Below are positions 21,259 to 36,567 of a stretch of DNA of 64,000 bases, piece by piece. The notes beneath the pieces are model-generated. The model worked only from the letters and a program-made list of their open reading frames with translations, searched no databases and was not told where the DNA came from. The position numbers and the translations under genes are program-made. The DNA is from Fluviicola sp. (GTDB taxonomy: Bacteria; Bacteroidota; Bacteroidia; Flavobacteriales_D; Crocinitomicaceae): contig NVXU02000025.1 in NCBI GenBank assembly GCA_002734065.2, positions 62,001 to 126,000 of the forward strand, given 5' to 3'. The number at the start of each line of letters is the position of its first letter. The stretch's first letter is position 1.

Positions 21259-21735
21259 CTACATTTCAATAACAAACCGAAAGATTACATTCGACTTTTT
21301 TTCTATTAAGATAATCATTACCTGCTGAGTTAAAACATCTGTTTGTGGTAATATAGGTGTGATTATGCTTATTTCAATATAATCCCCTCCTTTCGTCCGA
21401 GTAGCATTTTTTGCTGTCAAAGAATAACCTCCGGTTGATCTTACCTCATCGGTCACAAGGAACAAGCTGTGCGTAGAAAAATCAATGTTATTGATGTCGA
21501 AAGTTGTTGTAAATGGATTGATTTTGCTCAGTTGAGTTTCCGTTTTCTTCCATTCTGCAATGCTTGTTATTTCCTTAAAACCTTGTTCAAACCCTTCTTC
21601 TCCCACGCCAAATAAAACCGCTTTTTGAAGTGTTTCAACCTGTAATTCAGGAACTACGACTTCACTTTCTTTCACTGTTGAACAAGAACTTGCGATAATT
21701 AAAAAAGTTATTAAAAAAAGAGCGTTCTTCATCAA
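21259..21735 (-). CDS. PrcB-like domain lipoprotein
   Basis: A 158-residue lipoprotein: the N-terminus MMKNALFLITFLIIASSC ends in a lipobox with Cys18 as the acylation site. The C-terminal half contains STGGYSLTAKNATRTKGGDY, the characteristic GGYS-type motif of the PrcB domain, first described in a protease-complex lipoprotein of Treponema denticola. Its start overlaps the stop of the GH113-like gene by 4 bases, so the two are co-translated. A role in assembling or holding an envelope enzyme is inferred. The domain match is by motif and overall pattern only. Confidence 0.7.
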   Translation of the reverse strand: MMKNALFLITFLIIASSCSTVKESEVVVPELQVETLQKAVLFGVGEEGFEQGFKEITSIAEWKKTETQLSKINPFTTTFDINNIDFSTHSLFLVTDEVRSTGGYSLTAKNATRTKGGDYIEISIITPILPQTDVLTQQVMIILIEKKSNVIFRFVIEM

Positions 21736-22736
21736 TTGTTGTCGTTTTTATAGGTTAAACCAACCAATTTCTCTGCCAATTTATTCTGAACCGTATATTT
21801 TATGTCATTTTCTCCGCCAGAATTTGGGTGATAAGGGTACCAACGCCATAAAAATCCCCCGGCAATAAACTCTTTTTTCCAAACAGCTGCATATAGCGCA
21901 GCCAAAGAATTGAATTGAGAATCTTCATCAAAAACTGCATCGGATGTATGCACCCAAGGTTTAGCAGCGCTCTTTTTTACACTTCGGTAGCCGTATTCTG
22001 TCAACAGGATTTTTTTGCAATTTTCTTCGCTGACTGTTTTCATTTTTGCAAGAATTGCTTGCCAACCTTCAACTAATTCTTCACTTGTCGGCGCATCTTT
22101 CTTCGAAATTGGAAAATAGGCATCAATACCTATGAAATCTAATTCTTTCCAATAGGGAAACTCGTCGTAGTCGTCCCAATTGGCAGCATAAGTCATTTTT
22201 CCAGAATAAATCGCTCTGATTTCTTTTATTAATTTCTTCCAGAATTTCGGGCGCGATTTTACAAACTTTCGCAATTCTGTTCCGATGCAAAAAAGTTCTA
22301 CATTCTCTTCTTCTGCCAACTTTACAAAGGCAAGAATGTAACTTTTATAAGATTGCTCAAACGTTTTCCAATCCTTTTTTTTTGCAAAATTAATGTCACC
22401 AACGTAACGACCGTCTTTTTCTCTAATTTGCGGTTTTAACATCACAGAAAGTCCAGATTTTCTAATTTCTTTAACCATTTGTCGCACTCCTTCTAACCTC
22501 TCTCCATAGTATTCCCATTCTTTATCATAAATCAATTTTGCGTCATTGATAGAGTCAAAATCGCAGAAAGGGACAACGGAAACCCAATTGGCAGAAATAT
22601 TTTTAATGGGCGCAATGTGAGAGGCTTTCAACTCGACTTTTACCGAAACCAGACTCACTCCTGCTATTTTATTCTGAGAAAATGAAAGGGCAGAGAATAG
22701 TGAAATAATTAGGTATGATAAGATCGTTTTTTTCAT
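21732..22736 (-). CDS. GH113-like TIM-barrel glycosidase
   Basis: A 334-residue exported protein resembling glycoside hydrolase family 113 (beta-mannanase-like). The ATG at 22736 (MKKTILSYLIISLFSALSFSQ) is chosen over an upstream in-frame ATG at 22769 because it begins a proper signal peptide, and the upstream one overlaps a 54-bp palindrome. Glu154 in FCIGTELRKF and Glu247 in ILLTEYGYRS fit the acid/base and nucleophile positions. AANWDDYDEF and FIGIDAYFPI are further family-like strands. It would act in the periplasm or outside. Homologues without demonstrated activity are common, so the substrate is open. Confidence 0.82.
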   Translation of the reverse strand: MKKTILSYLIISLFSALSFSQNKIAGVSLVSVKVELKASHIAPIKNISANWVSVVPFCDFDSINDAKLIYDKEWEYYGERLEGVRQMVKEIRKSGLSVMLKPQIREKDGRYVGDINFAKKKDWKTFEQSYKSYILAFVKLAEEENVELFCIGTELRKFVKSRPKFWKKLIKEIRAIYSGKMTYAANWDDYDEFPYWKELDFIGIDAYFPISKKDAPTSEELVEGWQAILAKMKTVSEENCKKILLTEYGYRSVKKSAAKPWVHTSDAVFDEDSQFNSLAALYAAVWKKEFIAGGFLWRWYPYHPNSGGENDIKYTVQNKLAEKLVGLTYKNDNN

Positions 22737-22762: not shown

Positions 22763-22816
22763 GCATCATAATTCAGTACGGGCGAGTCGCGACTCGCCCG
22801 TACTGAATTATGATGC
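22763..22816. repeat. Perfect 54-bp palindrome, copy 1
   Basis: Each arm is exactly 27 bases with no mismatch and no loop. The inner 14 bases of the left arm are GTACGGGCGAGTCG, and the outer 13 are GCATCATAATTCA. It lies in the divergent region between the GH113-like gene and the SpoIIM operon. A further direct copy of the outer arm (CTCAATTATGATGC) occurs at 22825-22838. A second palindrome of the same length and related core lies at 36514-36567. Confidence 0.95.
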
Positions 22817-22891
22817 TGCCTGAACTCAATTATGATGCTTATACTAAATACTTTTTACTATATTTACTCTTCTTAAAAACCAACCATAGAA

Positions 22892-24811
22892 TTGAAGGAA
22901 ACTAAATTTATAGAGCAAAACAAAAAAAAGTGGAATCGCTTTGAGCAACTCTATGAATCCAAATCCAATGACCCTGATGAGTTGAGTGATTTGTACATGG
23001 ACATCACCGATGACCTCAGTTACTCTCAAACATTCTATCGAAGAAGAACCGTTCGTGTTTATTTGAACAAATTAGCGCAAACAGTTTATACAGGAGTTCA
23101 CAAGCAAAAAGGAGAATCAATAAGGCGTTTTATAGACGTTTGGAGAGTTTCTTTGCCTTTGGAGATTTATCGTTCACGAAAAAACTTGCTCTTTGCGCTG
23201 GTTGCGTTTACTATTTACGCATTAATTGGTGTGGTGACCACAATGATAGACCCGGATTTTCCACGTGTGGTGATGGGTGATTATTATGTGGACATGACCA
23301 TTGAGAATATCCAAAACGGAAATCCACTAAAGGTTTACGAGACCACTGATCAGATGGCGATGTTTGTGAATATCACAACCAACAATATGAAGGTTGCATT
23401 TCTGACCTTTTTTGTCGGCTTCTTTTTCACCATCGGAACACACATGTTGCTGTTCTATAACGGTGTCATGTTGGGTGCGTTTCAATACTTTTTCCATGCA
23501 AAAGGCTTGCTAATTACCAGTTTTCTCGGAATCTGGATACACGGTGCTTTTGAAATATCTGCCATCGTTCTAGCTGGTGGTGCAGGAATTACAGCAGGAA
23601 ATGGTTTGCTTTTTCCGGGTAGTTACACCCGTTTGCAGTCCTTGCAACTTTCTACAAAAAGAGGCTTGAAAATAATGATGAGTTTAGTACCTTTTATCGT
23701 TGCCGCGGGATTTTTAGAAAGCTACGTGACGCACAATTATCAAAACTTGCCAGAATGGTCAAAATGGACCTTGATTCTTTTCTCTTTTGCACTTATTCTC
23801 TTTTTCTATGTCTTTTACCCCATTTATGTGGCAAGAAAGCACCCCGAATTGATAGACAAGGAAGAAGTCGGAAATTTTGAAGACAGAAAAATTTTCGATT
23901 TACATAAAATCAGAGGTTCAGGACAAGTAATGGCAGATTCTTTTAGAATGTATCGGGTCATTTTTCAAAAAATAGCGCGCGTATTTCTGTTGATCGTTCT
24001 CCCTATCATCGCTGTTTTAGTGATTCTGCAAGATTTCAATCATTATGAATTACAAAAGACACAATATTGGTACGATTGGTCGGCGCAACTCGAATTTATG
24101 ATAGGTTATGGCTTCAGAAACACGCAAGATATAATTGTCTTCACGATTTGGACTTTTGTCTTCGCGTTGATTTTCTCCACACTATTTTGGGCGATTCAAA
24201 ATTACGAAAAGACATTCTCTTGGAAAGATTTTTTCTCCTACCTCAAACAACGCTTCTTTGGAATCTGGGTAGGTAATTTATTCTTTGCTCTAATTTGCCT
24301 GTTGTTGCCATGGTATTTACTGCTTTTTGCCATTTTCTTACTCCCCTTCTTTTACCTAAATGCGGCCGCAATGGGCATCAGTAAAGGCAAGTTCAAAGAA
24401 CGATTTAGAAAAGGATTTAAGTACAGTAAACAACATTATGGAAAATCACTGGTGCTTCTACTTGTCTTGATAGGCCTAACCTCCATCATTTTGCAACCTG
24501 TAGCATTTGTATTTAGCATCCACGATACATGGAGTGATGAACCTCAAATGAGAGACCTTTTGGACATGACCGCAGACTTCGTGAAAAGGATAGGACAAAT
24601 CTATTCAACCGACTACATGGTTTGGGCAAATGTTTTAAGACAAATCGTCTATGTAATTTTTATGTTAGGCTTACTTCCATTGTTGGTGATTACGATGGCA
24701 TTTGGGTATTTTTCTGAACGAGAAGAAACAGAAGCATTAGGTTTAAGAAAGCAATTTGAAAAGTTTGGAAAGAGAAGTAACACACAAGAAACTCCCGTAG
24801 ATTTTGATTAA
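22892..24811 (+). CDS. SpoIIM-family (stage II sporulation protein M) membrane protein
   Basis: A 639-residue multi-pass membrane protein. The first 330 residues match the SpoIIM/DUF95 family found in many non-sporulating bacteria, including the MVNITTNNMKVAFLTFFVGF-like segment (here MFVNITTNNMKVAF), GTHMLLFYNGVMLGAF and WIHGAFEISAI. The second half has about six more hydrophobic helices not typical of the family core. The start is TTG (22892). It heads a coupled five-gene operon with MoxR and DUF58, overlapping the next gene by 8 bases. The function in this setting is unknown. Membrane assembly or stress is the usual suggestion. Confidence 0.88.
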   Translation: MKETKFIEQNKKKWNRFEQLYESKSNDPDELSDLYMDITDDLSYSQTFYRRRTVRVYLNKLAQTVYTGVHKQKGESIRRFIDVWRVSLPLEIYRSRKNLLFALVAFTIYALIGVVTTMIDPDFPRVVMGDYYVDMTIENIQNGNPLKVYETTDQMAMFVNITTNNMKVAFLTFFVGFFFTIGTHMLLFYNGVMLGAFQYFFHAKGLLITSFLGIWIHGAFEISAIVLAGGAGITAGNGLLFPGSYTRLQSLQLSTKRGLKIMMSLVPFIVAAGFLESYVTHNYQNLPEWSKWTLILFSFALILFFYVFYPIYVARKHPELIDKEEVGNFEDRKIFDLHKIRGSGQVMADSFRMYRVIFQKIARVFLLIVLPIIAVLVILQDFNHYELQKTQYWYDWSAQLEFMIGYGFRNTQDIIVFTIWTFVFALIFSTLFWAIQNYEKTFSWKDFFSYLKQRFFGIWVGNLFFALICLLLPWYLLLFAIFLLPFFYLNAAAMGISKGKFKERFRKGFKYSKQHYGKSLVLLLVLIGLTSIILQPVAFVFSIHDTWSDEPQMRDLLDMTADFVKRIGQIYSTDYMVWANVLRQIVYVIFMLGLLPLLVITMAFGYFSEREETEALGLRKQFEKFGKRSNTQETPVDFD

Positions 24812-36502: not shown

Positions 36503-36513
36503 ATCATCAAATT

Positions 36514-36567
36514 AATTTCAAGTATTGTAGGGGTTGGTCGCGACCAACCCCTACAATACTTGAAATT
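36514..36567. repeat. Perfect 54-bp palindrome, copy 2, between atpA and atpG
   Basis: The arms are 27 bases with no mismatch. The inner 14 bases of the left arm are GTAGGGGTTGGTCG and the outer 13 are AATTTCAAGTATT. The right end touches the last base of the atpA stop codon, and the left end is 11 bases from the atpG start. It is related in core and identical in total length to the palindrome at 22763-22816. Transcribed, it would form a very stable hairpin within the operon mRNA. Confidence 0.95.

Follow-up and report, generated by a model that had tools for sequence, protein, structure and literature searches.

Locus-specific inverted flank copies around a double-foot-like REP element in Fluviicola

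A 28-bp palindromic core dispersed through the genome of Fluviicola sp. is a known kind of element, a REP, and nearly every copy that we checked in the genus is bordered by a short inverted copy of its own flank. It is this regular bordering that leads us to propose that the hairpin primes the copying: the reading we hold to be probable is that a RAYT mobilises the REP and that the end of the REP hairpin serves as primer for a short fold-back synthesis of the adjoining DNA.

Two palindromes in the window and the arms of their genomic relatives

The window, that is, the whole stretch of 64,000 nt that was analysed, contains two such palindromes. The first (22763-22816) was described in the initial annotation as a perfect 54-bp palindrome between two divergent genes, and this is what we find: its two 27-nt arms (22763-22789 and 22790-22816) are 100% complementary, with no spacer or loop, and it occupies the intergenic space between a GH113 family gene on the minus strand and a SpoIIM-domain gene on the plus strand. 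The start of the GH113 gene was placed by eye at an MKKT signal peptide near 22736. The second palindrome (36514-36567) is also perfect. The features are as follows.

21732..22736, minus strand: gene for a GH113 family protein, neighbour of the first palindrome, starting at the signal-peptide ATG
22763..22775, no strand: left outer arm, 13 nt, locus-specific, perfect complement of the right arm
22776..22803, no strand: REP core, 28 bp, GTACGGGCGAGTCG^CGACTCGCCCGTAC, with an architecture like that of the double-foot REPs in extracts of PMC6006769
22804..22816, no strand: right outer arm, 13 nt, reverse complement of the left arm
22824..22838, plus strand: third copy, direct, of the core end and arm, 14/15 identical to 22802-22816
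22892..24811, plus strand: gene for a SpoIIM-domain membrane protein, neighbour of the first palindrome
36514..36526, no strand: left outer arm of the second copy
36527..36554, no strand: REP core of the second copy, 28 bp, GTAGGGGTTGGTCG^CGACCAACCCCTAC, between atpA and atpG
36555..36567, no strand: right outer arm of the second copy, its last base overlapping the atpA stop codon

The two cores share GTANGGGNNNNTCGCGANNNNCCCNTAC, for which 100 dinucleotide shuffles of the window gave 0 matches, and their outer 13 nt are unrelated, as had been noted at the outset. Among the matches listed in a scan of the window for perfect stems (13 nt or longer, loop no longer than 12 nt), these two palindromes were the only ones. 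No Rfam family matched the window at the gathering score, which rules out an Rfam family as the identity of the palindrome.

Across the 3.49-Mb genome from which the window comes (G000), GTANGGGNNNNTCGCGANNNNCCCNTAC was found at 41 places with at most 3 mismatches, and the reversed pattern at none. This number is a lower bound, as the pattern search missed a diverged core with arms; that copy (L242:19733-19788) has the core GTAGTGACAGGTCGCGACCTGTCACTAC and keeps perfect 14-nt arms. Two copies, L014 and L016, represent one locus split over two contig ends and were omitted from the arm counts. In the remaining 39 the arms are perfectly paired over at least 6 nt in 35 and over at least 10 nt in 27, with a median length of 13 nt and a maximum of 19 nt, and the base adjoining the core is paired in 97% of copies. 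Control pairings of flanks across loci reached at least 6 nt in 20/1482 cases and at least 10 nt in 3/1482, which rules out chance as the origin of the arms. The arms end abruptly: of the ten positions that follow the first mismatch in each copy, 98/350 in total are paired (28%), the level of chance. The flanks of all 41 copies were read, and the arm sequence varies from locus to locus; both the further copies in the genome and the locus-specific arms anticipated in the initial annotation are thereby found.

That these arms are an assembly artefact of a fragmented, probably metagenome-derived genome might be suggested by contigs C43 and C45, which both break at one REP, but is extremely improbable, given that only a few copies come within 1 kb of a contig end and that at L021/L206 the separate genome G031 has the same core too, at the corresponding position, with its right arm unchanged and 12 arm bases paired.

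The direct third copy of the arm reported for the first palindrome is present with its single mismatch (22802-22816, ACTGAATTATGATGC, against 22824-22838, ACTCAATTATGATGC) and includes the last two core bases. Such copies are uncommon, with at least 12 matches on 4/92 sides against 0.68 expected; cases similar to that of the window are L047, L052 and L044, and partial direct copies are likewise seen at L044, L052, L045, L008 and L022. At L047:1513-1659, in the relative G029, tandem units of a half-REP plus TGTTA with a period of about 25 stand next to an arm-bearing full REP. Slippage, or switching repeated at one spot, would suit the third copy in the window. The atpA-atpG spacer (36503-36567 in the window; L055, L062 and L068 are examples from relatives) holds, by eye, unrelated hairpins in several members of the genus, including a stem of 11 in G029, and these stems are wholly different between species although the flanking genes are roughly 80% identical.

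Within the genus almost all copies have arms, whereas copies of the same core elsewhere mostly have none. All ten copies read from the relatives G014 (all 3 of its copies), G029 (6 read out of 8, with records L123 and L153 counted here) and G031 (1) have arms of at least 6 nt, whereas in other taxa of the public collection the same core has them in 9/115 cases among the matches listed. The latter count was 14/120 before five records from the genus (L117, L122, L123, L153 and L164) were removed, and the correction, together with the ten out of ten, makes the contrast between lineages slightly stronger; of the nine, one (L093) comes within 58 bases of the end of its contig and another (L112) is a nest of REP copies. 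In family-level relatives whose REPs share this architecture, 2/14 copies have arms of at least 6 nt, one of them a neighbouring REP copy and the other, with 12 nt, in G050 (one of nine G039 copies was left out of this count). Since the same core is usually armless elsewhere, copying is not obligatory for the element. Nor are arms a general property of palindromes in this genome: a second perfect family, 32 bp long (TTTTCGCAAAATTCAATTGAATTTTGCGAAAA; 27 places, for example L312:1501-1532 and L242:1115-1146), has no locus-specific arms (0-4 nt in 18/18 read) and weakly conserved flanks, with the reservation that this family is AT-rich and less stable.

Identity of the core and its association with RAYT genes

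By architecture and association, the element resembles the double-foot REPs of RAYT (TnpA-REP) subclass 2.4, or group 4 (Quentin et al. 2018, PMC6006769), and we file it by that resemblance. According to extracts of that paper, a double-foot REP is a palindrome that bears GT[AG]G at one terminus and the complement at the opposite one; such REPs occur next to RAYT genes, and within them too, in Cyanobacteria, Bacteroidetes and various other phyla. The long palindrome, the complementary feet, of GT[AG]G type in part of our cores, the adjoining RAYT genes and the spread over many phyla are alike in both; the locus-specific inverted flank arms are peculiar to our case, as far as those extracts go. 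The feet of the exact G000 cores read GTAG in 9/24 and GTAC in 15/24, and the strict combination of a GT[AG]G foot with a C[TC]AC foot is present in the copy at 36527 and absent from that at 22776. The GTAG-tagged REPs of Di Nocera et al. 2013 (PMC3733652) are likewise small extragenic palindromes tied to RAYTs and mostly downstream of genes, but their GTAG is unpaired at one end, whereas both feet are paired here.

A RAYT-like ORF of 162 aa lies 102 bp downstream of core copy L032 in G000. It scores 24.6 bits against Pfam Y1_Tnp (cut-off 23) and 52 bits against NCBIfam REP_Tyr_transpos, below the cut-off of 80, and has no relatives in the PDB at E 0.001. Its motifs read DHVH and YIYQNP, where those given for subclass 2.4 in the extracts of PMC6006769 are NH[IFV]H and YIxNNP, and for this reason the protein is not filed as a member of that subclass.

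Core and RAYT largely occur together within the genus. Among its 34 genomes the core is present, at no more than 1 mismatch, in G000, G014, G029 and G031, and an L032-type RAYT, among the matches listed, in G000 and G029 and as a broken copy in G031; in G014, whose cores have arms, none was detected among the matches listed. With RAYT presence taken from those matches, the Fisher probability, calculated by hand, is 4/5984, or about 0.0007. The broken copy (L328, G031:C61) is 90% identical to the G000 RAYT and has two stop codons, and G031 has a single core at that mismatch level. In the public collection, phmmer with the L032 RAYT found RAYTs in 5/109 core-bearing loci, among the matches listed, against 0/40 stretches of 20 kb from the genus, a weak control in view of the differing taxa. 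Among the matches listed, the core itself is present in public genomes of many phyla. In five loci from other taxa (L108, L110, L111, L134 and L180), four of them Chloroflexi records and the fifth from an unclassified bacterium, the RAYT reading frame contains the core, as described for subclass 2.4, and in L180 this frame ends soon past the core; the G000 gene is not arranged in this way. In a different genus, a double-foot REP adjoining its RAYT (L330/L350, G050:C6:9398) has perfect outer arms of 12 nt.

In titles and the starts of abstracts we found no description of inverted flank arms at REPs, and a search for the core sequence returned, among the matches listed, no paper with a bacterial repeat in its title.

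Direction of copying and joint change of both sides

At two loci the alignments make clear which arm is the copy. The right-hand gene of L031 ends in DYVK* in G000, G014 and G029, and the left arm in G000 is an inverted copy of this gene end that includes the synonymous codons peculiar to G000; as the left arm repeats a conserved gene end in inverted form, the right arm is native and the left arm copied. The left arm of L037 coincides with the end of a methyltransferase-like gene, FGIFK*, which by eye reads FGILRK* or FGVLRK* in relatives. G014 and G031 are 43 nt shorter at this locus, where the core plus one 17-nt arm amounts to 45, with a 2-nt alignment gap in the gene end. The initial annotation had taken the core for a mobile element with arms copied from its flank, and the dispersal of the core, its RAYT association, the inverted gene end at L031 and the relatives lacking core plus one arm at L037 all bear this out.

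The comparison with empty sites that had been recommended alongside that claim was only partly successful. The one-arm state is seen at L037 against G014 and G031 but not against G021 and G033, where the differences are 54 and 18. Two further loci agree more weakly, namely L023 against G031 (33 nt missing, compared with 34 for the core and a single 6-nt arm) and L036 against G021 (40 nt, or 28 + 12), the latter locus differing by 21 and 4 from G033 and G031. For L029 the length difference to the relatives is 53-55 nt, about that of the core with both arms. Over 30 "empty" pairs from 15 loci the median length residuals were +9 for core only, -6.5 for one arm and -20.5 for two arms, with too wide a spread to choose among them. 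L035, L005, L018 and L030, checked in relatives, gave no further clean empty site, nor did the RAYT locus of G031, which lacks a 1.16-kb block that includes the REP. Most of these other sites are too diverged to show a direction. For the first palindrome of the window, alignment with G014 weakly favours the left arm (22763-22775) as the native one, with a score of 55 when the left arm is kept and 50-52 under the other models.

Some of these alignments would also suit a core that entered the centre of loop-less palindromes already present. Keeping both arms was the best model in 17 of 35 pairs (left 8, right 5, neither 5, with ties assigned to the first), 14 of the 17 having a length difference below 28 nt, and the L013 slot of the relative G031 contains a 7-nt stem, a length reached in 0/30 shuffles. 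Against it, we found no empty targets in the window and in 400 kb of G000 taken from stretches away from known copies: the loop-less perfect palindromes there with stems of at least 13 nt were REP-type cores, one of them diverged, and one other repeat family. The 97% pairing next to the core is not what a looped hairpin target would give, and the L037 relatives G014 and G031 lack the core together with one arm. With no such target in the window and those 400 kb, we reject insertion into existing loop-less palindromes, to which we assign a very low probability.

A different kind of evidence comes from orthologous copies, in which arms and variable core positions change together (L021/L206, L026/L214/L213 and L028/L210). 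At L021/L206 two core pairs differ and both partners have changed in each; at L026 the arms differ among three species and are paired over 13, 14 and 8 nt. At L034, between infC and rpmI, the flanks of G000 and G014 are 94-96% identical and the arms differ, each being paired over 12 nt, while by eye the core halves in G014 no longer match fully. The central bases of L027 read GTCACGAC in G000 and GTCGTGAC in G031, as expected for inversion of the spacer, although dissimilar left flanks make the orthology of this pair uncertain. Such concerted changes of both sides would fit template switching, which has been described for other inverted repeats (PMC8794818 and PMC8604942, in extracts) and which, according to the former (Monttinen and Loytynoja 2022), creates and maintains hairpins. 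The likeness to those hairpins lies in a reverse-complement copy of adjacent sequence that makes a perfect stem in one event; the cases in the extracts concern RNA genes, whereas here the copying concerns one mobile element and nearly every copy checked in a genus.

Switching after insertion, unrelated to transposition, might also be the sole cause, extending and homogenising the arms of any stable palindrome. The joint changes, the inverted centre of L027 and the published role of template switching in making and keeping hairpins, as given in extracts of PMC8794818, are all in its favour. But the 32-bp TTTTCGCAAAATTCAATTGAATTTTGCGAAAA family, AT-rich and less stable as it is, is unextended, and nearly all REP copies are armed, including those with identical and presumably young cores. 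We regard this explanation as rather unlikely in its pure form; it is a narrower form of the fold-back reading, and the two are not mutually exclusive.

Gene ends, mechanism and implications

Many of the copies lie at gene ends: 31/41 in G000 are within 40 nt of the 3' end of an ORF of at least 70 codons, 12 of those on both sides. Intrinsic bidirectional terminators combine a GC-rich stem with AT-rich flanks at gene 3' ends. The REPs share these traits, with the difference that not all copies are downstream of genes, and the suggestion that the first palindrome of the window might act as a regulatory or terminator site has therefore to be divided, as it agrees with where copies lie genome-wide and is unlikely, for a terminator, at this copy, which lies upstream of two divergent genes; an ordinary terminator is rejected there. 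The first 13 nt of the 3' arm are 48% T (245/507).

Selection for long hairpins, by which REPs at gene 3' ends are retained as terminators or stabilisers of mRNA 3' ends and their arms come to pair by compensatory substitution, is a partial rival. The gene-end positions speak for it, as do REP-free relatives, in which 16/51 orthologous slots are occupied by another stem of at least 9 nt (2.4 expected) and 8/51 by one of at least 12 nt (0.07 expected), the hairpins at L011 in relatives, terminator-like by eye, and the folding energy of -44.8 kcal/mol calculated for the 54-nt RNA of the first palindrome. Hairpins at these slots are probably useful, and retention of the REPs may be favoured thereby. 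As a source of the arms, selection accounts poorly for their abrupt ends, for the lineage-specific synonymous codons copied into the L031 arm, for the position of the window copy and for perfect arms of 12-19 nt, which would need many coordinated substitutions per locus. Arm mismatches are of G-T/A-C type in 16/52 cases, without enrichment, so that RNA wobble does not explain them, and selection for wobble is unsupported. We consider hairpin selection an improbable explanation overall.

The fold-back reading can be put as a series of steps. A 28-bp double-foot-like REP would have been inserted at the window site by a putative RAYT (HUH tyrosine) transposase. One outer arm would be the original flank and the other its inverted copy, made when the 3' end of the REP hairpin folds back and primes DNA synthesis over up to 19 nt (in G000), either during insertion or soon after, by template switching in replication. 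In the earlier suggestion of fold-back or template-switch synthesis it is the copying of the flank that fits best and is well supported. The family of the core, its RAYT association, the sharply ended locus-specific arms and the direction at two loci are observed, and from them we infer the route, that is, the priming step, its enzyme and timing, and its occurrence at the window locus. A one-ended form of RAYT transposition in the genus, in which the REP is joined to the target 3' end and the free 3' end folds back and copies at most 19 nt before the second joint is made, is a tentative proposal that we think possible but lean against.

To our knowledge, the movement of REPs by RAYTs has never been watched in action. 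Were transposition one-ended, each new insertion would carry its flank duplicated in inverted form, where ordinary transposons leave direct duplications. The inverted target copy beside nearly every REP would be a footprint of the transposition reaction. Near-universal inverted flank copies in one genus are, as far as titles and the starts of abstracts go, a new aspect of a known element. They would show how, at a single stroke, a mobile element can make a long perfect hairpin out of a gene end, and would make the origin and upkeep of perfect RNA and DNA stems testable in bacteria, with about 40 cases and, in the same genome, an armless palindrome family as a control.
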